From Cucumis sativus (taxonomy: Eukaryota; Streptophyta; Magnoliopsida; Cucurbitales; Cucurbitaceae), in NCBI RefSeq assembly GCF_000004075.3, contig NC_026657.2, positions 12,214,001 through 12,278,000 of the forward strand: DNA of 64,000 nt. The letters run 5' to 3'. The notes under the pieces were generated by a model. The model saw nothing but the letters and a program-made list of their open reading frames with translations. It was not told the DNA's origin and ran no database searches. Shown here piece after piece: positions 34,201-64,000 of this stretch. The first letter of the stretch is position 1. Every line of letters starts with the position of its first letter. Made by a program: the position numbers and the translations under genes.

Positions 34201-35039
34201 TTCAAAACAAATTCAAATCATGTTAAATAATTTTGAAATTAGCTTAAAGTTAATTAAAAACACAATTACTGATATAGTAAAAATAAACATAGTTCAAACT
34301 ATATAGTTTATAAAATTTTATAATATAATTGATACGTGATTTTATTAAACCTAGTTAATTTAATATTATATATATATTTACCTGTTGAGAAGGGTATGCT
34401 TTTTACTCCTAATATACTAGCTTCAAATTGAAATAAATTAGTATTTTAATATTGAATTCTATTATCGAAAAATTATAATAATTTTATCAAATTGTACTTG
34501 AAGAATAAAAGGATCATAAAGTTTTAAAAGATAATTATATTCTTTAGATTCGTTAAATTAAAAAAATTGTTATTAAACTAAATTAGGTATTTCTCTACCT
34601 AAATAAATATAGATGATCCAAATGTATTTCAAAAATTCATTTTCATCTAAACCGTTTCTTTAACAACTTGTTAAAATAAAAACTCAAATGTGTTTTTATT
34701 TTTTTCAAAAAATAATTTGTATATATTCAAGTTTTTGTTATATATACTACACATATTTTTATTACATTCTTTCAAGAATGATGGGTAGTGATGGAAGGTT
34801 GGTTGGTAAGGGTATTCGAAGATTGCCGACAACGATTACGGAAGATTGTCCTAAATCCTAAAAATACTCATTTTATTCGATAACAATAATTTAGAAATAT
34901 AAGAAAATTTTATTAATAAACTATTAACTGTCTATTACTAAATTGATAATCATCCTTTCTATTCATTCAAATTATAAGAGAAGAGGGAAAGAAAATGCTT
35001 TGAAAATTATGAAATATGACTAATTATATTATAACATTC
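31221..35039. other. AT-rich intergenic region, nothing recognised
   Basis: Holds the 3' UTR of the DUF668 gene (to about 31400) and the 3' flank of the first SAP gene. No ORF, RNA gene or defined mobile element was identified. GC content is visibly very low throughout. Confidence 0.6.
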
Positions 35040-35073
35040 TCAGTAAATAAAAAAGAAATAAAACAATATCATT

Positions 35074-35529
35074 CTAAATTCTAAACTCCAATTTATCGGC
35101 CTTGCGTTCAACCATTTGCTTGGCCAAAATCTTGCGCCCAACCTCCTTGTGATCAAAGCCGCACGAATGCTCTTCAGGATACCTATGTTTGCCGCAAAAA
35201 CAACCTCCACATTGGCAGCTAAATCCAATCATTCCGACCTTCTTCTGGCAAATTTCGCATCTATTTTGGGTTTTCGGTGGCGCTGGATCATTGTGATCAC
35301 AAGTTTCAAGATTCTCCGATACACCAAAATAAGAAGATTGTCTCGTTTCAAGATTAATCTGACTTTTTGAGCTCTTTTGTCGTTCAAAATATTTTGCCCC
35401 GGTTTCTTTAAGAAAAGCAGCATAACAAACGGAGCACAAGTTTCGATTGTTCGGATTTCCATAAAACCCACAGTTGTTGGCGCACAGAGCATGGTCGTTG
35501 CCATTCTTTGAACTTTCAAAATCCGCCAT
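35074..35529 (-). CDS. SAP: A20/AN1 zinc-finger stress-associated protein, copy A
   Basis: Intronless, 151 aa, as usual for plant SAPs. The A20 finger has Cys16, Cys20, Cys32 and Cys35 (spacing 3-11-2). The AN1 finger has Cys91, Cys94, Cys105, Cys107, Cys112, His115, His121 and Cys123, exactly the AN1 spacing. A Ser/Gln-rich linker of about 50 residues joins them. Plant SAPs are cytosolic/nuclear stress-induced proteins; some bind ubiquitin or act as E3 ligases through A20, but the target here is unknown. This is the left member of a three-gene direct array. It is 5' similar to copy B (including about 0.9 kb upstream), while its 3' flank is diverged from B and C. A TATA-like ATATAA lies about 105 nt upstream of the ATG. 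Confidence 0.95.
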   Translation of the reverse strand: MADFESSKNGNDHALCANNCGFYGNPNNRNLCSVCYAAFLKETGAKYFERQKSSKSQINLETRQSSYFGVSENLETCDHNDPAPPKTQNRCEICQKKVGMIGFSCQCGGCFCGKHRYPEEHSCGFDHKEVGRKILAKQMVERKADKLEFRI

Positions 35530-35634
35530 TCAAATTATTTTTCGATCTTCTTATTGTTGAAACTCGTATCGATTTGAGTGAGGAAGAGGATTTGGTTTGT
35601 ATTTTGATGATGAGAACGAGTGAGCTCTCTCTCA

Positions 35635-35640
35635 ATATAA
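35635..35640 (-). promoter_or_regulatory. Candidate TATA box of SAP copy A
   Basis: TTATAT on the minus strand, about 105 nt upstream of the ATG, in a block conserved with copy B (39571-39576). Copy C has a longer TATATATA version at about 47708-47719. Inferred from sequence and spacing only. Confidence 0.4.
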
Positions 35641-35991
35641 AGAGAAAGATTGATATCTGAATCCAATTAGGAAACTGTTTAGATAAATTAAATCCCAAAA
35701 GAAATTGGAAAATCAAACATCTTTTCTCTCACCATATATTTTATTTTGTTTTTCCAATATTTAAATGTTTGTCTTTTTTGTTTGCACTTTCCAAAATATT
35801 TTTTTTTTTATTATAACATGACCTATGTCACGCTATTTCTAAAATTGCAAAGTAACAAATTTAAAAGTCGAGAATCCTATTATTTTCGTCTAATAGTCTT
35901 GTGATTTGGTATTATATCACGGATATATTTTGTCATATTTTTTAAAATTAAGTGTCATGCGTACATTTTTCTAAATATTTTTGTCAGTTTC

Positions 35992-35996
<5 letters not shown>

Positions 35997-36031
<35 letters not shown>
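35997..36031. repeat. (TA)n microsatellite upstream of SAP copy A
   Basis: About 17 TA units. The equivalent site upstream of copy B (39932-39950) has only about 9-10 units, so it has changed length since the duplication. Confidence 0.9.
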
Positions 36032-36033
<2 letters not shown>

Positions 36034-36433
36034 GAGAACCTTTATAGATTAAGATATAACTAATTCTCATTCTTTTCCTCAACATAAACAAATAATAATC
36101 ATTATAATCCTAATCATATATTATATTAGTTTTAAACTTTTAACTATGTTCCGTTATTTATATTAAATATAGTTATAAAAGTATCCTTAAACTTTGTAAC
36201 TTATATAAAAAATATTCTAAGCTTTAAAAAGTTTAAAGAATGTTATTAAATTTTAAAAATGCTAAAAAATATCTTGGGAGGGAAATAGTTAAAAAGTTAT
36301 TTTAAAAATACTCCCAAAGTATTGAAAATTTTGATACTTACCAAAATTTAGAAAATACTCTCATACTCTTATTTTTTACCTCGAAAATAAAAACCACAAT
36401 GTTAAATTAAAATCATAGTTTTAAATTTCCATC

Positions 36434-38969
36434 AAAAATAAATTGAACATTGCAATCAAAAATTTAAAAATAAATTTTTTTCAACCATTAATATTTTGTC
36501 AAAATATGACAATCCATAATTCAATACTTTGTCAAAATATGACCAAGAATAATTCTCCAGTGTGCCAAGGTTGATGAGTTATATATTAAATTTCATTTTG
36601 GCATACCAAAATAAACAAAAAAAAACAATTACATATACAAAAAAATGGTTAACTCAATTAGAAAGTTTTTTAAAAAATAGTCATCCATCGATCATTCAAA
36701 CTAATATAAACCTGAAAAAGGTATAGTAAAATTAATAATTCCCAAGTGCAAAGTGTTTTAACTCTCAAGGTCGACTACAAAACAAGTTTCAAATGCCTAA
36801 GTTTGATCATAAAAAGCAAAACCAACTACACAATAAATTTAAACAGTTTCTTACTTCGACAAATTATCTAAAAAGCTAAAAAATATCATATACCTTAAAA
36901 TGTCAAGTATGTTTCAAATCATCCAACAACTTAAAAAAATATCAACCAGCCAACCAATAAACAACTTAGTATGACTACCAAAACTCAAAATGATCAACTA
37001 CGAGATATTTATAAAAGATGTATAAGTGATAGTTCAACAAAGCATCCAAAAAGCTGAAAAAAATATCATACGGTTCAAATTAAACAAGATGCATAAATGG
37101 CCTAAGTGTGACTTTCAAACCCATAATCAACCTAAAAAGTCGTGAAAAAGTGTGTTGACATAACTATCAAAACAACACTTTCATGCCCCAAGTGTGACTA
37201 AAGACATGAAATTTGGGAAAACATTCATATTTTAATCAATATAACAAATAGAAAGAATTGAAAATGATATGACTATTAGGTGAAAGACATATAGACAAGG
37301 AAGAACCAACAAATATATACTATAATAAAGATACTTGTTAATGTGATAAGACTTACCAAAGTAAACAACATGAGCAATTGAAAAGTATTAAGAATCTCAA
37401 CATCTTTTTCAATCACCTAAACGAACATCTTTACCTTCCTCAAGCGACCCCTTGACTTGAAAATGTAATTGCATTTATCAATTGAGCTCATTGAGCATTA
37501 ACAATATTGTTTTTGTTCATCAATATCAATTAACCTTCAATTAGTTACTATGGTTATAGTAAAAGATTATGTCCGCCTAGGCCAAAGGAGTTGGTTTGAA
37601 TTTGCCCTCCAATGGGAACAGATAAGTGTGTGAGTTTGTCCACCTCAAATTGGGAGTCGAACCAATTGAATGTCCAAGTGTTGTCCACCTTTATCTTGTC
37701 CTCACCCATAGCTCTGGGGTAAACTAAAATAATATCTAATTAATATTTATTTAAATCATACTTAAATCATATCTCACGCAAATGTATAGTTTAAATTCAA
37801 ACAATTAAATAATTTATCAATTAGTCAATTATTAAGTTAATCCATATTTTTTAATCATATACAAATAAATATTTTCATAGCCTAAAGTTGTGTATCTATT
37901 TAACGTTACATTATTGTCTAAACTCATTCAAATATTTTATTTTTTAATAAAATTCAAAATTAAATATATATTATAAATTTTGTGCATCATCATAGTCTTA
38001 GGAATTTGAACCAACTCAAATTTTATTCAAGATATAATAACTCCATTATCCCTTACAATTAGAAAAGAGATAATTGTAAAGAGATCTAATAAATTTACAA
38101 ATTAAAAGGTACCGACACAATTTAATATTAATTGACTAAACTTATTAACAATATTAACCTAATGGATCTACCAACCATATTTGACCATTGTAAAACTAAA
38201 GAAAACTAGAGATTATTCCATACTTTTAAAATTTAGTAAAATTGTCTTAAATAACAAACTCTCGAAAATATTTATTAATTTAACAAAATTTTACTTGTTA
38301 TAGACTCGTATATTTACTATCACTAGAATGATAGATGTTTATATGAATCTATTGCAAACTATCACATATAGAAAATAAAATTTTGCTTATGTTAGTAAAT
38401 AAATAAGCTCATTTTGCTAATTTATGAAAAAAAAAAAGATTTATAGTTAAATTAAAACAGTATTGGTTCAAAAAATGAAAAGATATAATGCCAGTTTGAA
38501 GCTAAGCTTTGTTTAGATGCTTCTCCCCGTTGATCTCTACGTTTTGTTGGTCAATTTGTCTATTTCGACCCCCTTGGATATTGAGGCTAAAATGTTTATA
38601 TTAATGTTTTGCTTTTTTGGCTTCCACCGGATGTTTTTGAAGGTTGATCAGTGGAGGTCGCTTGAGTTGGTAGTTGGATGTTCGCTGCTGTCAAAGTAGC
38701 CAAAGTGATAGACCGAAGGTGAGGGTGGTGGGGCGTCAAAAAGTTGGCAGAGGAATTTCTTATTAAGGTGTAACCAACGGGTTAGAGTTCAGTCTTATTA
38801 TTGGTTCTAACTTATAGCATGTATAAGTAATCCAACAAACACATAAAATCAAATTGACACTCCTCCAAAACTTATATTCATTCACTATTTATTCAAATTA
38901 CACAAGAAAATCCTTTGAAACAATGAAAGAATATATTTTTATTATCCAAGTAATTATTATTACATTGTC

Positions 38970-39000
<31 letters not shown>

Positions 39001-39150
39001 ATCAAATATCTAAATCCTAAACTTCAATTTATCGGCCTTGCATTCAACAATTTGTTTGGCCAAAATATTCCGCCCAACCTCCTTGTGATCAAAGCCGCAC
39101 GAATGCTCTTCAGGATACCTATGTTTGCCGCAAAAACAACCTCCACACCG
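36434..39150. repeat. Duplicated block, left copy (SAP downstream flank)
   Basis: Reads almost base for base as 44590-47351, with scattered single differences and small indels. It covers the downstream flank of copy B and the B 3' coding end. Neither copy has a recognisable gene other than SAP; a 60-codon ORF at 38517-38699 is identical in both but looks spurious. A sub-segment at about 37560-37720 (word TTGGTTTGAATTTGCC) also has a diverged relative near 42340-42430. Confidence 0.9.
38970..38998. repeat. Poly-A tract next to SAP copy B 3' end
   Basis: About 29 A (poly-T in the transcript sense), about 12 bases beyond the stop codon of copy B. The matching tract by copy C (47146-47169) has about 24. 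Confidence 0.9.
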
Positions 39151-39465
39151 GCAGCTAAATCCAATCATTCCGACCTTCTTCTGGCAAATTTCGCATCTAT
39201 TTTGGGTTTTCGGTGGTGCTGGATCATTGTGATCACAAGTTTCAAGATTCTCCAATACCCCAAAAGAAGAAGATTGTCTCGTTTCAAGATTAATCTGACT
39301 TTTTGAGCTATTTTGTCGTTCAAAATATTTTGCCCCGGTTTCTTTAAGAAAAGCAGCATAACAAACGGAGCACAAGTTTCGATTGTTCGGATTTCCATAA
39401 AACCCACAGTTGTTGGCGCACAGAGCAGGGTCGTTGCCATTCTTTGAACTTTCAAAATCCGCCAT
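39010..39465 (-). CDS. SAP: A20/AN1 zinc-finger stress-associated protein, copy B (hybrid gene)
   Basis: Intronless, 151 aa, with the same A20 and AN1 ligands as copy A, all intact. The gene is a mosaic. From the stop codon to about 39150 it matches copy C base for base (final residues GRNILAKQIVECKADKLKFRI). From about 39182 to the ATG and on through about 0.9 kb upstream it follows copy A, including the SSKSQINL linker that copy C lacks. The switch falls inside the AN1-finger codons. The open frame suggests a functional product. It should inherit copy A's promoter and copy C's 3' end, so its expression would follow A unless 3' UTR signals dominate. Confidence 0.95.
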   Translation of the reverse strand: MADFESSKNGNDPALCANNCGFYGNPNNRNLCSVCYAAFLKETGAKYFERQNSSKSQINLETRQSSSFGVLENLETCDHNDPAPPKTQNRCEICQKKVGMIGFSCRCGGCFCGKHRYPEEHSCGFDHKEVGRNILAKQIVECKADKLKFRI

Positions 39466-39931
39466 TCAAATTATTTTTCGATCTTCTTTTTGTTGAAACT
39501 CGTATCGATTTGAGTGAGGAAGAGGAATTGGTTTGTATTTTGATGATGAGAACGAGTGAGCTCTCTCTCAATATAAAGAGAAAGATTGATATCTGAATCC
39601 AATTAGGAAACTGTTTAGATAAATTAAATCCCAAAAGAAATTGGAAAATCAAACATTTTTCTCTCACCATATATTTTATTTTGTTTTTCCAATATTTAAA
39701 TGTTTGTCTTTTTGTTTGCACTTTCCAAAATACATATATTTTTTTTATTATAATATGACCTATGTCACACCATTTCTAAAATTGCAAAGTCGCAAATTTA
39801 AAAGTCGAGAATCCTATTATTTTTGTCTAATAGTCTTGTGATTTGGTATGATATCACTGATATATTTTGTCATATTTTTTAAAATTAAGTGTAATGCGTA
39901 CATTTTTCTAAATATTTTTGTCAGTTTCTCT

Positions 39932-39950
39932 TATATATATATATATATAT
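39932..39950. repeat. (TA)n microsatellite upstream of SAP copy B
   Basis: Shorter version of the repeat at 35997-36031, in the duplicated upstream flank. Confidence 0.85.
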
Positions 39951-40357
39951 TTTTCGAGAACCTTTATAGATTAAGATATAACTAATTCTCATTCTTTTCC
40001 TCAACATAAACAAATAATAATCATTATAATCCTAATCATATATTATATTAGTTTTAAACTTTTAACTATGTTCGGTTATTTATATTAAATATAGTTATAA
40101 AAGTATCCTTAAACTTTGTAACTTATATAAAAAATATTCTAAGCTTTAAAAAGTTTAAAGAATGTTATTAAATTTTAAAAATGGGAAAAAATATCTTGGG
40201 AGGGAAATAGTTAAAAAGTTATTTTAAAAATACTCCCAAAGTATTGAAAATTTTGATACTTACCAAAATTTAGAAAATACTCTCATACTCTTATTTTTTA
40301 CCTCGAAAATAAAAACCACAATGTTAAATTAAAATCATAGTTTTAAATTTCCATCAA

Positions 40358-43300
40358 TATCATGATATTTCTATCTTTTTTAATTTATTGTTTTTATAAT
40401 TTTTTTTATAAATATCCATCTTATCGATATATTCATTAACATTGAAAACATAAATATCCATCTTATCGATATAAAATTTCACCACTTCTCACGAAGATTA
40501 AAAAAAATTTCCTTAAGACATACTAAATCAATTACTAGTTAAATAAACAAATTTCATATTGATAAATCTATGAGACGATTACTCTGTGTTAATAGTCAAC
40601 CATATTTCTTTATTTAACAATTAATTGTATGTTAATTACAACACCAACTATTGAGATTATTGGTTGGGTTCGTGATCTATGGTAATTGTGTGTTAATAGT
40701 AAAAAAAAATTAAAAAATGTTTTAACTTAAAATTTGATTTTTATTTTGGTTGGTAAGAAAATTTGTGTAAATTTTGAATAAATGAGTATTATTTTTAACT
40801 TTTATTAAGCTCAAGGGTAATTGTGAAACTTTTCAATAGTTCATGTGTATTTTTTAAAACAAAACTTTAATGTTTTCCATCCAAAACTAATGACAAGGGT
40901 ATTTTTTTAAAAAAAATATATACTATGGGTCAGTAGATGCACTGGAACATCTTCACTAGATGAATACCTCCTTAGCACCCGCTTTATTGATAATATGAGA
41001 TCAGTACAAGAAGCAAGGAATACACACAAAAAAAGCTAGAGAGTAGCCTATGAGACCCGAAACCTCTAATCCTCAATGAAAGCATTAAAAAACATTGAGG
41101 TTTAAAGTTATGCTACTAACATAGTAGTTCTCCTAAAAATGGGAGAACGACTAGTCCAAAAGCGAGTGAGGACTTGTATATCTTCCTATAATGCCAGTAG
41201 AGATATTTCTTCCCCGTTAAACATCCTCTTGTTTCTTTCTAACCATGTAGACAAGAGGGTGATGACAACCATGTTTAAGTGGATAACCTGTTTTTTCGAC
41301 TTGGGTCTAGTTTTGCAGATATATTTACAAAGAAAAGCACCATTGTCAAAGTTGTAATGGTGGTGTAGAAGAACTCCCACCTTTTCCCAAATACCTTTTC
41401 TATAAGGGCAATTGTTGAATAGGTGATTTCTATTTTCTTCATTAGCTTTGTAGATTACACACCAGGAAGGATTCAGATTCCACTTAGGAAGTCTTTTCTG
41501 TAAGATTTCAATCGTGTTGATACATTCACGGAGAAGAGACCATATGAAGATTTTGTATTTCTTTGGAATAATATATTTCCATAGGTGCAGGTATATTTCA
41601 TATCCCACGTTTGGCTCCCTTGTATTTTGTCTGTGATGACTTTTTTAATCGAGGCAATGAAAAATCATCCATTTGTATTTAGGTTCCACGTGGGGATGTC
41701 TCTGTCTTGAGAAGGGATGAGAGGATGAAGTGTGCTTTTCGTTTCCTCCCAAATTTGTATTTCCACACTTTTCAACGGTCTTCTAGGGTGTAAATCCCAG
41801 TCGATAGATTCTTCATTCCTCAAGTCTTTGATTGAACTCAATTTTTTGGTTGTAAGCGCCTACAGTCTTGGGCTTCGAATGTAGAGAGGGTTGTGTTCAT
41901 GCCAATTTCCATGCCAGAAAGAGATGACTTCTCCATTATTTATCTTCCAACTAATCTGAGGTGCCCTTGGTTATAGACTTCCATGGGACTTTTAGGCTAC
42001 TGTAATTTCCTTTGGTAGGAATGTCACTCCATGGGGCTTTTAGGCCTACTGTATGTTCATATTTTTTTCTAATGGGAAGGGTATTTTCTAACTCTTTTTT
42101 AAAGTAGTAACACTTTTAAAACTTTTGAAAGTTTTGAGATATTTTTGATCCAACCTACAAATTAGTTTAGAGACATTTTTTGTAATTTATCTTATAGATT
42201 TGAGGATTAAAATTGCTAAACTGTTTTTCTTGAAAATGATATGTTCTTGACAAAAGTGTTTTTAAAGCATTGGTGTCGATACTCTGTTCTAAAAACTGGG
42301 CTCTAATATGCACATAAGGGTATCAGGCAGTCAGGCGTTGAGATGCATGTGTCCGCCAACACAAAGGAATTGGTTTGAACTTGACCATCAAAGGAAACAA
42401 CTAAGTGTGAAAGTTTGCCCACACTAGTAGCTGAGGGTGTAAAATATGTTTCAGCATTCAGGTTTGAGGTGTGCTGAAGATGTGTTTGACCTAAAAATGA
42501 AAGGGATCAGGCTCATGTGAATTTGGCATTTGATGCTTAGAGAATGACTTATCATCAGACGAGTGCCTAAGCAACAAAATGATTTTCAAAACGTATTTTC
42601 CCAAGCATTGAAAATTGGATTTCATAGAAAAAAAAAATTCAAAACTTGTCATTCACTAAACATTTGACTTACATTTTAAAATGTTTTCTCCAAGGTAGTA
42701 AAAAGTTCCCCAACAAAAGCTGCTAACTGTCTGGCCTGTTAGTGAAGCTTGAGTCCATTTCAACACAGTTTAGAAAAGCTTGTAACTTGTGTGTGTAAAC
42801 ATTCATAGCCAGTCTGTAAAAGAATTGATACTTGCATACGCGATGTCTATTTGTAAACTTTGGATCATAGGCGTTAATTGTACTAAGTGTTCGGATGTTC
42901 ATCATTTGTATTTGTCATCACATAACTAAAACTCATCACAAGCAATGTGCATAAAGCTTAGATTCACAACGTCATTTCTTTTCTTAATTAAACGTGTAAA
43001 ATAATGTTAAGTTGTGCAGCAAGGAGAAGTTTCACCTGGCATCTGAGTGTCACTGCAAGTAGGGATATATATTGGCACTTCACTCACCATATGCATTTTC
43101 TCTTGATTTAAGTTGGTAAATCGAGAAGGGATTTGACACCAATAAAATTTACCACGTGACAACAAAGTTTTAAAAGCAGCTGTGTATTATTTATCTTTGT
43201 GGGTAAAAGAACTAGATGCCATAATTAGGTGCAGCCTAAATTACACCAAATAATTGTCCAATATAGAAATGGTTCATATAAAATAACGTTCACTTTCTAA

Positions 43301-43560
43301 ACCTTATGAAAAGTTGGTACCTATACTCTATTATCCTACTACAATATTTGATGAAACAACTTGAATTATAATTGCAATTACAAAGGGGTTGTTCGAAAGT
43401 TGGCAGTCAAATCTCCTACATTTAATTAAACAAAAAAAAGAAGAGATTGAATTCAAACTCACAAGATAGACCCAAACCCAAATAATCAAAGGTCGAAGCT
43501 CTGCAAGCCTAAAGCAGTGATTGCATGGAACTTGGGACGAATGCTCTTCTTAATCCTTAA
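40358..43560. other. Sequence present only between SAP copies B and C
   Basis: Has no counterpart between copies A and B. Contains the LINE relic, a short tandem-like pair around CATGGGGCTTTTAGGC (about 41980-42055) and a diverged relative (about 42340-42430) of the repeat at 37560 and 45730. No intact gene. Confidence 0.6.
41186..41960 (-). pseudogene. LINE (plant L1-type) ORF2 C-terminal relic
   Basis: The minus strand carries the end of a non-LTR retrotransposon polyprotein. At about 41960-41900 it reads WKINNGEVISFWHGNW, the typical block after the reverse transcriptase. At 41608-41380 a zinc-binding zf-RVT domain is recognisable (YKIFIWSLLRECINT, then WCVIYKANEENRNHLFNNC). Stops near 41866 and about 41660 and a frame change break it. 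Downstream (about 41000-41180) may be its 3' UTR. Dead and 5'-truncated, as usual for LINE copies. Confidence 0.75.
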
Positions 43561-43564
43561 AATA

Positions 43565-43810
43565 AACACCTGATAAAATCAAGTTGACACATTCTTGAAA
43601 ACTTGTGTATACTCAAATATGAATACACCGATAAGTGAAACAAAATCCTTTGAAAGAAATGAAAGAATATTTTTTTACTATCCAAGTAATTATAATTACA
43701 TTTTGGAATTTTGGAAAATGTTTAGATAAATTAATTCCCAAAAGAATTTTGGGAATTCAAATATCTTTCTTCTTGCCATATATATATTTTTTCCGGTATT
43801 AAAATATTTG
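43565..43810 (-). pseudogene. Remnant of a fourth SAP locus without coding region
   Basis: 43565-43706 is a diverged version of the SAP downstream flank (compare 47010-47145; shared ATCCTTTGAAA, ATGAAAGAATAT, TATCCAAGTAATTAT). 43715-43810 is a diverged version of the upstream flank (compare 35670-35770; shared GTTTAGATAAATTAA, CCCAAAAGAA). The two flanks are fused directly, so the entire gene has been deleted. It is more diverged than A, B and C are from each other, so it is older. Confidence 0.65.
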
Positions 43811-44106
43811 TTTTCGTTTTGGAAATTTATATAAATAAATAACAATTTTTTTAAAAATATTTATAAATATAGCAAAATATATCAAAACCAACTAGAAGAT
43901 GTTATCAAAATATCTTAATGGCTCGACATAATAAAAATACACGAATGAGCATCCATATTAACTATTATACTTTTAACTAAACTAAATAATGTCATGCTAA
44001 TTATTTTCCTCAATACATTGCTAAAATTTTCTTAAACTTTGTCATTCAATGGTTAAATTTGCTAAAATGTTTTTCGTGAAAATGATGTTTTGACAAAAAA
44101 TGTGCA

Positions 44107-44280
44107 CACTACAAGAATTTTCGTCTTTACTGACGTAAAAAAACGTGGATAGTTCTTATGAAAAACGTGGATAGAACTTCGGACGTTTTTTTTGTCCATG
44201 TTTTTATGTTGGATCAGTAGAAATCTGTGCAAATTAAAATCTTGGGCACAAAAGATATTTTTAACCACGAAGAAAACATC
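44107..44280 (+). mobile_element. CACTA (En/Spm-type) transposon terminus
   Basis: Begins CACTACAAGAA, the usual terminal motif of plant CACTA transposons. Subterminal repeats follow: ACGTGGATAG occurs twice, along with ACGTAAAAAA and GGACGTTTTT. The matching right end (TTCTTGTAGTG) was not found, so only one end remains or the element was truncated. The 3 bases before it (GCA) would be the target-site duplication. Confidence 0.6.
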
Positions 44281-44589
44281 CTCAAGAATGTATTTTGCTC
44301 ATGATAATCGCATCACTTTGACAAAAATATATTTTCAGACAAAAAAAAACGTAAAGGTATTTTTACCATGATCATAACAAAGATAAAAAAACAAACACCA
44401 CATTTGTTTCAGGGGCATGTTTCAGTAAATAATATTTGTTTCTTTTTGCACAAGCAAGGTCGCTAGAGGTGATTGCCAACATATTTCTAACCACACAAAG
44501 AATGTGATGAAAACAATTTTTTCCACATTTATTATTAATATTGGATGCTTCTAAATTAAATTCAAATATACAATAAATTTCACGCCTAT

Positions 44590-47351
44590 AACAAAATAAA
44601 TTGAACATTGCAATCAAAAATTTAAAAATAAATTTTTTTCAACCATTAATATTTTGTCAAAATATGACAATCCATAATTCAATACTTTGTCAAAATATGA
44701 CCAAGAATAATTCTCCAGTGTGCCAAGGTTGATGAGTTATATATTAAATTTCATTTTGGCATACCAAAATAAACAAAAAAAACAATTACATATACAAAAA
44801 ATGGTTAACTCAATTAGAAAGTTTTTTAAAAAATAGTCATCCATCGATCATTCAAACTAATATAAACCTGAAAAAGGTATAGTAAAATTAATAATTCCCA
44901 AGTGCAAAGTGTTTTAACTCTCAAGGTCGACTACAAAACAAGTTTCAAATGCCTAAGTTTGATCATAAAAAGCAAAACCAACTACACAATAAATTTAAAC
45001 AGTTTCTTACTTCGACAAATTATCTAAAAAGCTAAAAAATATCATATACCTTAAAATGTCAAGTATGTTTCAAATCATCCAACAACTTAAAAAAATATCA
45101 ACCAGCCAACCAATAAACAACTTAGTATGACTACCAAAACTCAAAATGATCAACTACGAGATATTTATAAAAGATGTCAAAGTGATAGTTCAACAAAGCA
45201 TCCAAAAAGCTGAAAAAAATATCATACGGTTCAAATTAAACAAGATGCATAAATGGCCTAAGCGTGACTTTCAAACCCATAATCAACCTAAAAAGTCGTG
45301 AAAATGTGTGTTGACATAACTATCAAAACAACACTTTCATGCCCCAAGTGTGACTAAAGACATGAAATTTGGGAAAATGTTCATATTTTAATCAATATAA
45401 CAAATAGAAAGAATTGAAAATGATATGACTATTAGGTGAAAGACATATAGACAAGGAAGAACCAACAAATATATACTATAATAAAGATACTTGTTAATGT
45501 GATAAGACTTACCAAAGTAAACAACATGAGCAATTGAAAAGTATTAAGAATCTCAACATCTTTTTCAATCACCTAAACGAACATCTTTACCTTCCTCAAG
45601 CGACCCCTTGACTTGAAAATGTAATTGCATTTATCAATTGAGCTCATTGAGCATTAACAATATTGTTTTTGTTCATCAATATCAATTAACCTTCAATTAG
45701 TTACTATGGTTATAGTAAAAGATTATGTCCGCCTAGGCCAAAGGAGTTGGTTTGAATTTGCCCTCCAATGGGAACAGATAAGTGTGTGAGTTTGTCCACC
45801 TCAAATTGGGAGTCGAACCAATTGAATGTCCAAGTGTTGTCCACCTTTATCTTGTCCTCACCCATAGCTCTGGGGGTAAACGAAAATCATATCTAATTAA
45901 TATTTATTTAAATCATACTTAAATCATATCTCACACAAATCTATAGTTTTAATTCAAACAATTAAATAATTTATCAATTACTCAATTATTAAATTAATCC
46001 ATATTTTTTAATCATATACAAATAAATATTTTCATACCCTAAAGTTGTGTATCTATTTAATGTTACATTATTGTCTAAACTCATTCAAATATTTTATTTT
46101 TTAATAAAATTCAAAATTAATTGTATATTATAAATTTTAATTAAAATATAAATTTTGTGCATCATCATAGTCTTAGGAATTTGAACCAACTCAAATTTTA
46201 TTCAAGATATAATAACTTCATTATCCCTTACCGTTAGAAAAGAGATAATTGTAAAGAGATCTAATAAATTTACAAATTAGAAGGTACCGACACAATTTAA
46301 TATTAATTGACTAAACTTATTAACAATATTAACCTAATGGATCTACCAAGCATATTTGATCATTGTAAAACTAAAGAAAACTAGAGATTATTCCATACTT
46401 TTAAAATTTAGTAAAATTGTCTTAAATAACAAACTCTCGAAAATATTTATTAATTTAACAAAATTTTACTTGTTATAGACTCGTATATTTACTATCACTA
46501 GAATGATAGATGTTTATATGAATCTATTGCAAACTATCACATATAGAAAATAAAATTCTGCTTATGTTAGTAAATAAATAAGCTCATTTTGCTAATTTAT
46601 GAAAAAAAAAAAAGATTTATAGTTCAATTAAAACAGTATTGGTTCAAAAAATGAAAAGATATAATGCCAGTTTGAAACTAAGCTTTGTTTAGATGCTTCT
46701 CCCCGTTGATCTCTACGTTTTGTTGGTCAATTTGTCTATTTCGACCCCCTTGGATATTGAGGCTAAAATGTTTATATTAATGTTTTGCTTTTTTGGCTTC
46801 CACCGGATGTTTTTGAAGGTTGATCAGTGGAGGTCGCTTGAGTTGGTAGTTGGATGTTCGCTGCTGTCAAAGTAGCCAAAGTGATAGACCGAAGGTGAGG
46901 GTGGTGGGGCGTCAAAAAGTTGGCAGAGGAATTTCTTATTAAGGTGTAACCAACGGGTTAGAGTTCAGTCTTATTATTGGTTCTAACTTATAGCATGTAT
47001 AAGTAATCCAACAAACACATAAAATCAAATTGACACTCCTCCAAAACTTATATTCATTCACTATTTATTCAAATTACACAAGAAAATCCTTTGAAACAAT
47101 GAAAGAATATATTTTTATTATCCAAGTAATTATTATTACATTGTCAAAAAAAAAAAAAAAAAAAAAAAACTATCAAATATCTAAATCCTAAACTTCAATT
47201 TATCGGCCTTGCATTCAACAATTTGTTTGGCCAAAATATTCCGCCCAACCTCCTTGTGATCAAAGCCGCACGAATGCTCTTCAGGATACCTATGTTTGCC
47301 GCAAAAACAACCTCCACACCGGCAGCTAAATCCAATCATTCCGACCTTCTT
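44590..47351. repeat. Duplicated block, right copy (SAP C downstream flank)
   Basis: Partner of 36434-39150. It starts abruptly at the word AAAATAAATTGAAC and runs into the 3' coding end of SAP copy C. Differences from the left copy include an extra stretch near 46135-46150 and poly-A length. Confidence 0.9.
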
Positions 47352-47606
47352 CCGGCAAATTTCGCATCTATTTTGGGTTTTAGGTGGCGCTGGATCATTG
47401 TGATCACAAGTTTCAAGACTCTCCGATGCACCAGAAGAAGAAGATTGTCTCGTTTCAATCTCATAATATTTTGCGCCAGCTTCTTTGAGGAAAGCAGTGT
47501 AACAAACGGAGCACAGGTTTCGATTGTTCGGATTTCCATAAAACCCACAGTTGTTGACGCACAGAGAAGCGTCGTTGTCATTCTTTGAACTTTCAAAAGC
47601 TGCCAT
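47181..47606 (-). CDS. SAP: A20/AN1 zinc-finger stress-associated protein, copy C
   Basis: Intronless, 141 aa. A20 (Cys16, Cys20, Cys32, Cys35) and AN1 ligands are complete. The inter-finger linker is 10 residues shorter than in A and B: KYYEIETRQ where A has KYFERQ...NLETRQ. The N-terminal half is the most diverged of the three (MAAFESSKNDNDASLC), and upstream similarity to A/B fades within about 200 bp of the ATG (beyond about 47790). The last 85 codons and downstream flank are almost the same as in copy B. It is probably the older parent of B's 3' half. TATA-like sequence lies at 47708-47719. Function is as for other SAPs, unknown in detail. Confidence 0.95.
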   Translation of the reverse strand: MAAFESSKNDNDASLCVNNCGFYGNPNNRNLCSVCYTAFLKEAGAKYYEIETRQSSSSGASESLETCDHNDPAPPKTQNRCEICRKKVGMIGFSCRCGGCFCGKHRYPEEHSCGFDHKEVGRNILAKQIVECKADKLKFRI

Positions 47607-47799: not shown

Positions 47800-49900
47800 T
47801 TTTACTGAATTAACTAACTCTAATTATTTTCCTCAATAAATAAATAGAATAATTATAACTCTAATGATATATTATATACGTTTTAAAATTTTAATGATAT
47901 ATTTTTATTATATAATAATCATTATTAATTAAAATTTTAACTCTAATAACTTATTTTGACCTTTAAAAGATTAAAATAATAATTTGTAATTGTAAATTCT
48001 CTAAATCGTTTTCTCAAAAAAAAAAAAAAAAAAATCTAATCTAACATCCAAACTATCTGATTTTGTTTTATTTTCGCCATGAAAGCTTGACCAAGATGAA
48101 CACTGAGTTTGTACATAATTATAAAAATAGCACATCTAATTTCTATTTCCATAATTATTTATAATTCCAAATACATTTACTGATTATCCAAATATTAAAC
48201 CCAAGAAAAAATCAATAGTTAAACATAAAGGAAAAAGAGTTAAAAAATTTATTTGAATCACTCTTGTTTATCTTGGCCCAAACTTAGAAAAAAAGTATTT
48301 TAACTTCTCGTAGAGTGTGCTTGTTGTGAGTATATACATATATATATACTCTAGCATTCATACAAATCGAACTAACTCTAAGTAATTTTGCCTAATTATA
48401 ATCATTGCTTATCTCCCTGTGTATAGTTAATGTCATCCCCAATATAAAATAGATACATTCTATTCCAATAAATGATTAGTCTTTCATTTTTTTTTTGTAG
48501 ACCTACTTATTCTAAAAAGTTTCATACTACCTATTATTCTCATTCATAATTTGATATGTCATTAAATGATATATTAATTATTTGGTAAACTCTTTAATAT
48601 TCTTAAATCCTAAGCAATATTGAGAACACTATGTTCTTTGAAGTTTAAAGATCGAAGCTAGAAATTGAGGCAATTTTTTTGGTCATTAGAACATTTATGT
48701 TTGAATGGTCAGTAGAACAAGACGTTGAGATTTATAAATTTTGTACACTTTTTTCCCATAAGTTTAGGGGATTGATGTTGAGTGTTTTGATCCGATCTCT
48801 TGGCCAAGGGCACATTTAAATCTTGTTCATATGTTGATAGTATTAAAAATACACTATCTTATTTCATTTAAATTAGGATTGTTCCGTTGTTTTACATCTC
48901 TACTCTATGGTTTTGTAGGTATTGAGCTTAGTTCAACTCATTTGTTCATTTCGGGACTAAACGAGCATTATGGAGCAAGGATTCATCGATTGACATGTTG
49001 GAGGCACGACACTCCATGGTACTAGACACAATGCCAAAAGACGGAGAGCACCCTTTTCGTGCATGTGGTTGTACTTTTGGAATTGTCATAAGGCGGTTGT
49101 GCGACACTTGTTCCTGCTCGAGAACAAATCATTCAATCCAAATCCAAATAGCCAGTGGCACAATAGATGTAATTTGCAACCTCCACCCCTATTCTTGAGA
49201 AAATGTTTAAGAAAACGAGTCTAGAGGAAAAGGTTTTCACAAATATTTGAAAGCATGTTTAAGAAAAGAGACGACATTATAAGGCTATAAGCAATAAGGG
49301 ACAAAAACTTTATATCTTTTAACTCATGGGTATAAAAGTACAATGATAAATCTTATCCCCATATAGCATATTCTGAACAAAAAGGGAACGGGAAGGCTCG
49401 CGTACATTAATGTGTGAGATGACATACTTAATAAAAGTATTTGAAAAATAAAAAAAGACAATGCGAGGAGTCAGAGTGATCATAGGACCACATGCAACAT
49501 GCCTTGAACAAGCATGACTGTGACACACAACGTCGCAACAGTGCACTTGGGCACCATGACTCTCTGAAGTTTAATGGAACTATTCGCGCGCGGCTTGGTC
49601 CCGCAACACTGCCCTAGGGTGCCACAACACCGTTGTGTTTTATTTCGTTGATAACTTTCAACCATCATCTTTAGATTTGTGTTCTTTGTCCTTTTTTTCT
49701 TTGATTCACTCATAATTTGTGTGGTTCGTCTTAAAGAAAAAGCGGTTGGTTATCTCAGATCGACCTGTTACTAAGCTAATACTACAAAATTGGTGTGAGA
49801 ACGGAAAAATTATTCGGTTTCATTGAAAGCCTCAACAACTTTCGATCACAATATTTACTGCTTGTGATTTCACACCAAGAGAACCAAATATGTGCTACGT
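47800..49900. other. Intergenic region with degenerate repeat-like GC patches
   Basis: AT-rich up to about 48980, then two GC-richer patches (about 48990-49140 and 49500-49640, the latter with CGCGCGCGG) that look like decayed retroelement interior but lack a recognisable coding domain. Short ORFs on both strands show no family similarity. Confidence 0.4.
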
Positions 49901-50232
49901 AAAAACCTATCGTCTTTCTTTTCCTATGAGATGAAGATTCGGAGAGCACGGCAAAGAACAAATTCAATTCTCCAATTCAAGCAAACACCACCGCAACCTA
50001 ATAGTTGAGTAAAATAATCAGATCAAAAGAATATGAAACTAAAATTTTCAAGAAAATCACTAGGTATAAGCTTAGCAGAAAATAAGTCCCCTTACTATGT
50101 TTAAATGCATGTGATACAATGTTGGCAACTGGTCTCTTCACAAACACAGCCACAACCACCATGATAGATGCTATCAAAACATCTGTAGCTCCACACACAA
50201 AAAAAAGAAACACAAATGAACATTAATATACA

Positions 50233-56718: not shown

Positions 56719-59151
56719 TCAGCTGGGAGACTTGGAAGTACCAGCAATTTTTTTAATCCTTTCAATAACTATCAATAAATCTTCTCGAGAAAGCGTAGTA
56801 AAACAACATCTAAACCATCCGGGTTCTATGCAATGACAAGCAGATCCAGGAGTTGCATTAATTTTAGCTACATTGAGCAGCTTCTCCCATAATTCAAGCT
56901 CCCCCTTCTCGCTATAAGAATTCATCAGTCCACTCATATCAACCCAACAGAAAAAACCAGCACTGCTCTTTGCACACTTAATTCCCAACTGTTTCAGACC
57001 AGCCACAAAAAGAACATACATCTCACGAATTCGCTTTTTGCTCGTCTCCAAGTATTCATTGATAAAGGTTCTGTCTGAAAGCATCAAGGTTACAAGCCGC
57101 TGGGTTGGAGCGGAAATCGGGCAAAATCTTGTCATTTTCCTAGCAGCAGCCAAAACATTTTCATTTTGTGAATAGATAACACCAACTCTAAAGCCAGGAA
57201 GAGAGAGGTCTTTTGACAGCCCATACACAATATGAACTCTATTCTTGTCAATATCTTCTGAATCAATAATTTCAGCCATGCTCACAAACTCATCGTTTCC
57301 ATAAACTGACCCTGCAAATATCTCATCAGATACAACATGGATGTTCTTCTCTTGAGCAAAATCCAAAATACTGTATAGCATTTCTCGGGGCAACATGTTG
57401 CCAACAGGATTTGCAGGATTAGATAGGAGAATTCCACGAACTTTGACTCCTCGTTTCCTGGCTTGGTTGAATGCCTGCTCGAGAACGGTGATGTTCAAAT
57501 TAAAGTTGTCAGCACTGCGACAGTGAACCGGTATTAAATCCACTCCAGTTCTCCACTTCATATCTCTATCAAAGCTGCAGGTAACTTTTCTAATTAAACA
57601 ATCAAATACTTAGGTAGCTAGATTCCTTTTGTGATGCAACGTTTTCTTATAAAAAAAATTGGATACTAAAATAGATGATACTAACCCAGGATAATAAGGA
57701 GTTGGGACAAGAAATGCATTTCCAGGGTCCGCTAAGCAGAAACAGAGTACCTCAACTGCGGCAGTTGCACCAGATGTTAACAATAAGTGTGATGGATCAA
57801 AAGCAACTCCACCACCCATTACCTGAGACATGAAACCTGCCATAGCCTACAATGATTGAATTGTTTTTTAGACAAGAGCCTGGATGACTGAATGCAAACT
57901 TGCTAAGAAGGTAATACAACAAAAGCAATATTCAGTACACACACACAGACAGACACACAAAGTAACAAACAGAAAAAGGTAATTGAATATGTTTAAGGAA
58001 TGGCAGACAGCAACGAGCAACCCACTTCTTGAATAAGGCAAAAAGACAAAAGAAACAAAGAGAAAACAGAGAAGTTGGATACATAAACAATCATAAGAAT
58101 AATTATCAATAAATCCTAGTTAAGAATAAAACGATTGATAAAGAAAGAAAACAAGATGATTTAAGTTCAAAACTTTTATTAACTCAGCCTAAAAACATCA
58201 GTTTAAACTTTCAACTTTCATCACATTGAGCCCTGCAAAGCCCTTTAAACAGCAATGCAGGTATATGAGGGAAACAAAACATGACATGGACAATATATGA
58301 ATACCATGCATTGCATTTCACAGACGAGTTTTGGTTCATCAACTTCAGATTAAATACAAACAGTGACATTATGATATAATTTTCAAAACACTTGTGCAAG
58401 TTAAAAAATTACATTCCTATTCACTCCTCAACCTAACAATCCAACATCACAGAACCAAATGTTTAGAGGAAATATGTGTTTCCACCACAAAAGAATGGAT
58501 GGAAAAGAAAAACAAAATATTAAATATAAGTACCATTTTAAGCTCCCACAATCCATCGAAAGGCTGATAAGTGGCTATCCCCGTAATATTCAACTCAACG
58601 CTATTGCCTCCATTTATGGAACCAGTATAATTCTCCGATATCCATTTCTCAAGCAAATCAAAGCACAGCTTCACACACAAGAAACAAAAACAACTGAGTG
58701 TTTTAGAAAAAGAAACAAATTGTGAATTGAAAAAATAAAAGAGTTCGAATGAGAAAGAAAAAAAGAGTACCCTGTTCTCGGACAAGCCAAGCTGAATAAT
58801 CCCATTCGGATTATCCAACCTATCGTAAGGATCCTCCCGAACGCGATCCAATCCAATATAGTAGGGAGAGTTATTGGGTTTAGCAATAAAACTGGCTCGA
58901 GAAGAAAGGCGAGGTCGTCCAGTGGATCCACGAGCCAGTAAATTGGAGCGGGAGGAGGAGCGGTGGAGGTCGACGAGGTTAGTAGAAGAGTGAGAATGGG
59001 ACGGAGGATTCGAGGAAGAATCGGAGTTGGGCGAACGGTTTCGCTTGAGATAAAGTTGGAGGAAGTAGAAGAGAGCACAGGGAATGAGAGAGCCTAAAAG
59101 GAGACCTCCACGGCCTTGGACTACGCCTTGCAGAGGCACTACAAGCCTCAT
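56719..59151 (-). CDS. ACS12: ACS10/ACS12-type aminotransferase (ACC-synthase-like)
   Basis: Four exons, 59151-58771, 58668-58534, 57846-57686, 57574-56719, give 510 aa. PLP-dependent class I/II aminotransferase: aromatic box [46 protein letters not shown], and the PLP-binding lysine at about residue 347 in [22 protein letters not shown] carries the substrate-carboxylate Arg. True ACC synthases have FQDYHGLPEF and NPSNPLGT at the first and third sites. The forms here and the long N-terminal extension (residues 1-100, with a hydrophobic segment at about 16-36 and a Ser-rich linker) are those of ACS10/ACS12, reported in Arabidopsis to be aminotransferases without ACC synthase activity. The N-terminal hydrophobic segment may anchor it to a membrane. 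A direct role in ethylene synthesis is therefore unlikely. Confidence 0.93.
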
Positions 59152-61177: not shown

Positions 61178-64000
61178 TCACAACATTCTGTTATGTGCTT
61201 CAATCATTGATACTTTCTCCTGCAGAAATAAAGTTGGAAAAGGGAAAATGGAAGTAAATAAATCAATCACTTCCTAAAAGGATTAAGTGCTTGTTTGGAA
61301 AGACTTTCAAAGTCTAAAAATTGTTTTTCTTTAAGCATTTCGAAAGTCATCTCAAACCGACACTAAAAAGATGGTGTGAATTGCAATCTAAAGAACTGGG
61401 AGAGAGAGAGAGACCTCGTTTTGTATGTTGTTTTCAGAAGGGAACCAATGCATGAGAACCCCTAAATTTAGAACGGCAGGAATCAATTTGAACAGAAGAG
61501 GGGTGGTCACCTGTGCAACGTAACATTTAGACTTTAAACACATTAGAATGCATAACAGACAGTTCCGCTTCCCCTCTCTCACCATAAGAGCAGGAAAGTA
61601 CATCAGAGTACAAAGGCAATCATAACTCACCAGACTAAGTGCCGTTGTTCCAAGAAGAAGAAGATAAACCTTCCCCTGAGTAGGAGGAATAAGAAAGAGT
61701 ATAAATTACTGCCACTATTGCTCAAGTAATGAATCGAATAAAAATTATACGAAATCATTCAGATGCATAAAGGAGAAAAATGAAGATGGCCTATTCGGGG
61801 GAAACTACATTCCTAAAAGTACTCAAGAGGAAGTTGTTAGGGGCAATATTTATTATTTTATCTTTGTACTTTATGTTCGTGTGGCCAAATATAGCAATGA
61901 AATCTCTTGGTCTACTATTGCAAGAATGTTAAATAAACGCCTAAGGCTGAGACTCATTACTACATGCAGAGTTTTGTTAAGGCTTGAAACTTCACGCTCG
62001 GAACTAAAAACATGATATGTCAAGGTCTGTCGACGTATTTTGTTTTCGTGTCACATAAGATATGAGGAAGCTGGAGAGAGAGAGAGAGAGTGAGATAACC
62101 CCAATGAGATGAAGGTTTGAAGCACGGCTTAGGAGGACAAAAGCAAATTCTCCAATTTGAGCAAGCATGACCCCGACCTAAGAGTTAAGGTAAATATCAA
62201 GATTAGAAAATCATGAAACTATTTTCTTCATAAAAAATCAGTAAGCAAGCCTACCTGGAAAGAAGTCCTAATACCGTATCCAAATGCCTTTGCAACAATG
62301 GTAGCAACTGCTGTCTTGACAAACACAACCAGCATTACAGACGCTAGCAAAATGTCCAAATGGCTCCACAGAAAATGTACATGAATGAGCATTCCAATAC
62401 TTGAAAGGAACAAAGCTGCAAACAAATTGCGGATTGGTTCCACCTATAAAGAAAGAGACCGTCAAACTTTAACCTTCACACCAATTTAATAGCCCAATGT
62501 TAGAAGAAATATGCCGCTAGAAGATAAAATGACAATTGCAGCATGACAACATCTACAAAATTGTAGCAACCTGATCACTCCTTTCCTGACACTATAGTAC
62601 ACTTTATATTACTTAATATAACTTGAACCCAACTTGACAAGCATAAAATTACAGCTTGCCACTCTTACTTTTGGACAACCCAGAGTGGCATGAAGATTTT
62701 TAGAAATATATACTAAAGATAGAAATCTTTGTCCATGAATCATCACAACGCACACAAGTCAAGAAACTAGCAGCATGCATTATCATTGGAATACCTGATC
62801 TAAAGTATGTTGACCGAAGTCAGTGGTAGATACCATAACTCCAGCTACAAAGGAACCCAACTCAAGACTGAGGCCCAGCTTATCACTGCACTGAAAAAAG
62901 TTTTAAAAAAATGCACAAGAATTAATTTGGTTTCAATATGCAAATACAAAGCAATATATTGCAGTTTATGTCATGTTGCACCAATTCAGCAATCCAGAAA
63001 GAGGTCAGATCCAACTTTTCAAAGAAAACCTATGGCTATTATATAAATCTATTAAAGCCTTCTATATAAATATTACTCGGGACTTTTCCAAATTCAATAT
63101 CAAGACCTTCAAATGCAGATCTAATTATTCTAATAAAAAAGAAATTAACAAAACACATATAGTACCACCAGAGAAATATTAGCATATATTAGGCAGAGAC
63201 AGTAAAAGTAATAAAAAAAACCAATTTCTTTCCCAGATTTTCTACCTTCCAGGCATGCATATCACTTATTCTTCCCCATATTCTCAATGTCTTCAGACCT
63301 CTCAATCCAATATCCACTATCACAGACGTTGATTACTAAGTAACCTCAAGGAGAAATCCTCCAAGAACCAGAATTGTGGATCTCTTATTAGAATGAATAA
63401 TGTGCTTCATACAAAAGGAGAAGACTCCTATTTATAGAGTTATATTACAACTAGGGGTAAAAAGGAAATTAACCTAGAATATTACCTAATTACCCAATTA
63501 ACCCTTAGTCTTCTAACATCAAACGTTGCATTTCCTTAATCCATTACCTAAATTCAAGCTTCTCACCAAACTCATAATGGATCAACTTAAATTCTAATCT
63601 TCAGTCTTCAGTGTTTACAGTCGTCATCTATAGTCGGTATATAAAATAGAAGTATAGAACAGTAGGTAGAAATAGTCAAATTTAACGATATCATGTACTC
63701 TTTGCTGCTACTGTGAAGGGATTATCCATTAAAGAACATTTAGTGCTGCTACTGTGAAGGGATTATCCACTAAAGAGCATTTAGTAGTCAAATCAATTTT
63801 ATAATGATGCATACTGGCTCAATGGCATCATTGATCAATCTAAAATAGACAGTAAACGAGGTAAAAAAACTGATAAATAACTCAACAACAAACAAGAATC
63901 ATCTATCAATGTCAGGTTGGATCAAAAAGTAGCTAGGGCATGCAAAATTAGACATGTGGCTTTACCCAAGCAGACAGCAAGCAGAATGCCACAGCAGCAA
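61178..64000 (-). CDS. KEA5: K+ efflux antiporter of the KEA4/5/6 clade, C-terminal part
   Basis: Seven exons are visible: 64000-63966 (continues outside), 62890-62795, 62443-62255, 62177-62100, 61675-61631, 61510-61415, 61219-61178. The encoded C-terminus reads SDKLGLSLELGSFVAGVM, EPIRNLFAALFLSSIGMLI, AQIGEFAFVLLSRASNLH, LLLLGTTALSL and TTPLLFKLIPAVLNLG, ending with a short hydrophilic tail (EKVSMIEAHNRML). These are the last membrane helices of a CPA2-family monovalent cation/proton antiporter. KEA4-6 lack the plastid extension and KTN domain of KEA1-3 and work in Golgi/endosomal membranes, where they adjust lumenal pH and K+. The last exon is only 14 codons and is supported by its match to the family tail. 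The donor before it (GAG/GTCTCT) is weak, and readthrough would give a different short tail. Confidence 0.9.
63330..63521 (-). mobile_element. Short solo LTR (TRIM-like) in a KEA intron
   Basis: A 192-bp insert begins TG and ends CA on both strands (minus-strand reading TGATGTTAGAAG...TAGTAATCA). It contains a TATA-type CTCTATAAATAGGAG followed by leader-like sequence, and is flanked by GACGT (63325-63329) and AACGT (63522-63526), a 5-bp target duplication with one mismatch. The equivalent intron position in the KEA pseudogene lacks it. Confidence 0.65.
63704..63785. repeat. 41-bp tandem duplication, two copies
   Basis: Units starting GCTGCTACTGTGAAGGG at 63704 and 63745, with two or so differences, in a KEA intron. 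Confidence 0.85.

Follow-up and report, generated by a model that had tools for sequence, protein, structure and literature searches.

Within the window, a stretch of 64,000 nucleotides of cucumber (Cucumis sativus) DNA, three SAP genes lie in tandem, and the middle one, copy B, is a hybrid of the two others: from its upstream flank to the middle of the AN1 finger it agrees with copy A, and from there through its 3' flank it agrees with copy C. We consider it very probable that B arose when a C copy and an A copy underwent unequal homologous crossing-over; this confidence covers the crossover origin itself, which is common to the explanation that we prefer and to a simpler one with a single crossover, discussed below. 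The genes and the two fingers of B are as follows (finger coordinates converted from amino acid positions).

35074 to 35529, minus strand: SAP copy A, an intact 151-aa A20-AN1 frame
39010 to 39465, minus strand: SAP copy B, the hybrid, an intact 151-aa A20-AN1 frame
47181 to 47606, minus strand: SAP copy C, an intact 141-aa A20-AN1 frame
39358 to 39423, minus strand: A20 finger of B, A-type (aa 15-36; PF01754)
39082 to 39195, minus strand: AN1 finger of B (aa 91-128; PF01428)

In all three copies PF01754 (A20, near the N terminus) and PF01428 (AN1, near the C terminus) scored above the cut-off, and by pattern match the Cys/His spacing of the AN1 finger is that of the zinc ligands. Each copy reads as one open frame (151, 151 and 141 codons), as in the mostly intronless plant SAPs. 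When the genome was searched at the DNA level with the B locus, the A, B and C loci came up (at least three places), and a search for the AN1 family returned 13 loci. The order is A (35074), B (39010), C (47181), so that the hybrid sits between its two parents. On the plus strand, long open frames at 38854-39306 and 47223-47588 run antisense to B and C, respectively, and are probably a by-product of codon use.

To locate the switch, A, B and C were aligned three ways and the ungapped columns were counted (A positions 35027-35725). Among 63 variable columns, B agrees with C in 22 and with A in 37; three hold a base private to B and one, 39489, a different base in each copy. Left of the switch (38961-39149) B carries the base of C at all 19 informative sites, and the 3' flank is C's for 2.5 kb, as an earlier note on this DNA had claimed for everything downstream. 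The other half of that claim, A-likeness from about 39178 upstream, holds at 37 of the 40 informative sites to the right (39182-39655) and fails at 39266, 39428 and 39527, where B equals C; these three exceptions would fit changes private to A. The bases private to B, suspected by the earlier note near 39250, lie at 39217, 39254 and 39259 and are as expected if B changed later. In a walk of the 3SEQ type the observed clustering was reached in none of 200,000 shuffles, and the best split, picked post hoc, gave a Fisher P of 1.1e-12. The switch itself falls in one short tract, which the earlier note had put at about 30 bases common to all three genes, between CCACACCGGCAG (39143-39154) and CTTCTGGC (39178-39185), both of which it had located exactly.

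39150 to 39181, minus strand: tract of 32 bp identical in A, B and C that holds the switch (B codons 95-106)

This tract falls within the AN1 finger, between the second and fourth cysteine (C94 and C107), and B joins the Gln95 of A to the Arg106 of C. The switch keeps the register exactly, with no base inserted or lost, and the tract adjoins the longest tract in which A equals C, 77 bp. In the 3' coding part dN and dS between B and C are both 0, as against 0.040 and 0.152 between A and B; in the 5' coding part the values are 0.017 and 0.034 for A-B and 0.070 and 0.227 for B-C. The last 105 sites left of the switch (39043-39147) contain no B-C difference, and A and B differ at 21 of 220 sites on this side (A 35027-35246). 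To the right, A and B differ at 24 of 1172 sites and B and C at 39 of 475. The two halves of B are therefore not equally distant from A and C, which the earlier note had named as evidence to the contrary; the distances swap at the switch. When C on the left and A on the right were spliced at the tract, the product matched B at 98.7% (3862 of 3912 columns), compared with 96.8% for A alone (1347 of 1392) and 98.0% for C alone (3115 of 3180), each over its own shorter span.

The division of B between its neighbors extends into the flanks, which were delimited by alignment.

35530 to 36435, minus strand: 5' flank of A, common to that of B (to 40357)
36436 to 39009, minus strand: 3' flank of B, common to C (44593-47180), a mosaic of identical and 2.5%-diverged tracts
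39466 to 40357, minus strand: 5' flank of B, A-type
44593 to 47180, minus strand: 3' flank of C

The A-B similarity spans 35027/38955 to 36435/40357; it ends 0.89 kb beyond the start codon of B, which bears out the 0.9 kb of A-type upstream flank first noticed by eye in the letters. The B-C similarity starts at 36435/44593 and continues via the 3' flank into the gene. These long flanks bear on the alternative that three full copies existed beforehand and that gene conversion alone gave B its C-type end or its A-type front. B and C have likely undergone conversion, and the switch coincides with the edge of one identical tract; however, C-likeness runs on through 2.5 kb of 3' flank, 2.5%-diverged stretches included, and A-likeness spans 0.9 kb of 5' flank up to the segment that we call X (see below), so that conversion would need to span one whole side. 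We judge this alternative very unlikely. Farther out, the 5' flank of C at 47811-47996 resembles that of A at 36057-36257 again after a gap of ∼0.3 kb (0 of 200 shuffles); the older A-C homology would thus extend further upstream than the first alignment showed, or this similarity may be a dispersed repeat. The 3' flank of A has a weak collinear similarity (34940-35014) to the 3' flank of B and C, a level that 13 of 200 shuffles also reached.

The A-B and B-C spacers are homologous apart from 4.2 kb more in B-C, and the gene-to-gene distances are 3936 bp (A-B) and 8171 bp (B-C). A bare crossover would be expected to leave the two distances equal, and the difference most likely reflects a loss of 4.2 kb from the A-B spacer.

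40358 to 44592, no strand: segment X, 4235 bp, present only in the B-C spacer and judged ancestral
36435 to 36436, no strand: putative deletion junction, at which the A-B spacer lacks a counterpart of 40358-44592
43561 to 43887, no strand: relic, within X, of an additional SAP unit, gene body absent, with a 3'-flank piece (43561-43702) beside a 5'-flank piece (43710-43887)

The repeats at the ends of X suggest that X was lost rather than gained, since those that cross its junctions run on elsewhere in the genome. At the right end (44592/44593), 37 of the 91 other listed repeat pieces cross by at least 20 bp on each side. At the left end (40357/40358), three other repeat copies cross in one piece, 11 further pieces stop 17-18 bp past the junction, and most other listed copies begin further right or stop short of it (all counted by eye). 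Six spanning copies, three for each end and chosen because they span it, were fetched, and all six were confirmed to cross; in none of these six was the A-B junction 36435/36436 crossed by 20 bp. X is most likely the older state, with the A-B spacer carrying a 4.2-kb deletion. The relic pieces inside X are 72-77% like the flanks of B. Similarity of the 3' flank of A to the relic was matched by 6 of 200 shuffles, and beyond 43888 the similarity of relic and A is insignificant (26 of 200 shuffles). We also considered that the relic is a gene-free ancestral unit into which a SAP gene was later put. The homopolymer adjoining the SAP gene is poly-T on the sense strand and so is no sign of a retrocopy.

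An insertion of X as a transposon into the B-C spacer after the duplication was rejected: repeats cross both ends elsewhere (strongly at the right, in three copies at the left), no target-site duplication was seen by eye, and X contains the old SAP-unit relic. The deletion junction in the A-B spacer, with a 1-bp overlap and no target-site duplication (by eye), is itself end-joining-like. This is the one feature that speaks for an origin of B in a tandem duplication produced by end joining or template switching, whose ends fell by chance inside both genes; the junction within the gene, however, is base-exact in a 32-bp identical tract, which random ends rarely achieve, and we regard such an origin as extremely unlikely.

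Several other elements were observed in and around X. A dispersed repeat at 44107-45208 runs across 44592/44593 and is cut off at 36436 in the A-B spacer; its terminus near 44107 is CACTA-like. Also within X, 42350-42422 forms a second collinear anchor, 78% like 37570-37643. The minus-strand open frame 41186-41608 carries a zf-RVT domain (PF13966) and is probably a fragment of a LINE-like element, and further copies of the stretch ∼40914-42027 occur in the genome, the six longest matches being 68-80% alike. Outside the array of SAP genes, the window contains a direct repeat pair (49923-50179 and 62101-62352, 71% alike) and an aminotransferase class I/II frame at 56719-57561 (PF00155), part of a gene resembling an ACC synthase.

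If B arose in one duplication event, its A-like right part and its C-like left part should have diverged equally from their sources. Overall they did not: B and C differ at 26 of 2705 positions on the left (0.96%) and A and B at 24 of 1172 on the right (2.05%; Fisher P = 0.008). Differences between B and C fall in clusters (dispersion P = 0.0001, longest gap P = 0.0155), those between A and B less so (dispersion P = 0.018, longest gap P = 0.198, in a run started at 35212 that took in two sites left of the switch). A two-rate model divided the B-C alignment into identical tracts at 36436-36995, 37250-37698 and 38528-39181, plus one of 35 bp, and diverged tracts, in which 26 of 1048 bp are substituted (2.48%), near the 2.05% of A-B. 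Its fit was equalled in none of 100 shuffles. In the 680 bp beside the switch there are no B-C substitutions, with P = 7.8e-7 at the A-B rate and 1.4e-3 at the B-C mean rate.

38528 to 39181, no strand: B-C tract without substitution that ends at the switch, a candidate later conversion tract

The lower divergence of B-C on the left than of A-B on the right is not predicted by a lone crossover; later conversion or a mosaic between homologues is needed, and the patchwork favors one duplication followed either by B-C conversion or by a mosaic of alleles. As an identical tract ends at the switch, a later B-C conversion may have set the present switch point. The position of the original crossover would then be narrowed no further than ∼38955-39181, the stretch left of the switch over which A and C are homologous. 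The simplest account, with one crossover located precisely in the 32-bp tract and no later conversion, would ascribe the B-C patches to allelic differences between homologues or to chance. An exchange between homologues, one of them with the 4.2-kb deletion, would yield the gene, the flanks and the spacer lengths in one step, and a haplotype mosaic could still produce the patches; the clustering of B-C differences, the two-rate fit that beats every shuffle and the substitution-free 680 bp nevertheless argue against it. We hold this account possible but not likely. At substitution rates between 6.5e-9 and 1.5e-8 changes per site and year, a divergence of 2.05-2.48% would give a rough age of ∼0.7-1.9 million years; this figure is too high if the parental copies already differed as alleles.

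The explanation that we prefer adds later exchange to the crossover. The older array would have been A - X - C. The C gene on one chromatid would have paired with the A gene of the other chromatid, presumably in meiosis, and an in-register exchange in the 3' part of the gene would have given A - spacer - B - spacer - C, with B receiving the promoter, A20 finger and linker of A and the AN1 end and 3' flank of C. The A-B spacer would have lost its 4.2 kb either before the crossover, as a deletion allele that joined in it, or afterwards; a crossover of a deleted with an undeleted homologue would produce the present array in one step. Later B-C exchange, probably by conversion, would then have erased differences in some tracts, one of them ending at the present switch. 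Unequal crossing-over accounts at once for the hybrid gene, for flanks that are C-type on the 3' side and A-type on the 5' side, and for the duplication of the spacer. The crossing-over proposed in the earlier note, which would have combined the promoter and A20 finger of A with the AN1 tail of C, is thus supported by the gene mosaic, the flanks and the duplicated spacer; the hybrid origin stands, and the proposal is amended by the unequal spacers and by the later B-C tract identity.

Two of the three genes could be matched to published cucumber SAPs. CsSAP2 is described as a protein of 151 aa, 17.05 kDa, pI 8.43 and GRAVY -0.793, and CsSAP3 as one of 141 aa, 15.68 kDa, pI 8.21 and GRAVY -0.643 (PMC7154871). 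We computed 17.051 kDa, pI 8.43 and GRAVY -0.793 for A and 15.681 kDa, pI 8.21 and GRAVY -0.643 for C, and from equal length, mass, pI and GRAVY we identify A as CsSAP2 and C as CsSAP3. B (16.889 kDa, pI 8.40, GRAVY -0.689) is absent from that published list of 12 (CsSAP1-12), which was built on v2 proteins; the list holds A and C, gives CsSAP2 and CsSAP3 as a tandem pair, and comes with no description of a hybrid in the part of the source that was available (PMC7154871). The spacing of CsSAP2 and CsSAP3 in v2 is 8272 bp, against 8185 bp predicted for a two-gene A-X-C array and 12107 bp in the present array. Because v3 and the earlier assembly both represent one inbred line (PMC6582320), a collapse in the v2 assembly is a likelier reason for the missing B than its real absence.

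The opposite error, an assembly chimera that created B, might be suspected from a gene list, based on the older v2 proteins, that contains only two of the three genes. Even within the shared parts, however, B differs from A (24/1172) and from C (26/2705), and if the assembly used here is v3, its error rate is below 0.00024 per base and 239 tandem duplicates are reported among the genes newly assembled since v2 (PMC6582320). We give a chimera almost no credence. CsSAP2 and CsSAP3 reportedly showed no expression in the tissues tested (PMC7154871), and with the promoter of A, B may be quiet too. As the published list lacks B, RNA-seq reads or primers intended for 'CsSAP2' may mix A and B. A search of the open-licence literature found Csa3G177900 in PMC7154871 only, no paper giving v3 gene numbers together with A20/AN1 names for cucumber, and no report tying SAP genes to unequal crossing-over.

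Hybrid genes of the anti-Lepore type in the beta-globin cluster are likewise made by unequal crossing-over and sit between two intact parents. SAP copy B belongs to another family in another kingdom, and ∼2% divergence has accrued since its origin. Cucumber itself has a locus that changes in copy number by unequal crossing-over, the Femaleness (F) locus with CsACS1G (PMC7072070). Like the SAP array, it is a tandem copy-number locus of the same species with a recombinant extra copy; its unit is 30.2 kb long, and the extra copy has a distal promoter from another gene (CsBCAT) with its coding part unchanged, as described in the accessible text (PMC7072070). In the SAP array, by contrast, two paralogues recombined within the coding sequence. 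Newly assembled tandem genes of cucumber v3, e.g., TPST, resemble B as extra tandem copies missing from the older gene set; the SAP case goes unmentioned in the abstract and the Data Description of the v3 paper (PMC6582320).

The hybrid also differs from A within the AN1 finger. Codon 106 (A 35212-35214, B 39148-39150) encodes Gln in A and Arg in B and C, and the Arg106 of B stems from the end contributed by C. Among the other pattern-matched AN1 fingers of the genome this codon encodes Arg in 7/8 and Lys in 1/8, and Gln occurs in A only; 2 of the 13 AN1 loci fall outside the pattern and were not counted. The solved structures of relatives comprise nine distinct sequences, including AN1-type zinc finger protein 5 and several single AN1 domains, so the AN1 finger can be modelled. 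As judged from the reading frame and flanks, B most likely makes a full-length A20-AN1 protein under the control of A, with the AN1 arginine that A misses. A bolder reading is that B is a working, repaired gene, with the promoter and A20 finger of A and an AN1 Arg106 obtained via C, and that ongoing conversion between B and C keeps their AN1 ends alike as the fronts diverge; we think this unlikely, though not negligible. If it were true, fingers would be shuffled between promoters within the array. Unequal crossing-over that yields a hybrid gene is a well-known route of gene-cluster growth, to which B adds an example. It represents natural, domain-level recombination of tandem paralogues in a crop, in which the promoter and A20 finger of one gene have been joined to the AN1 finger of another.
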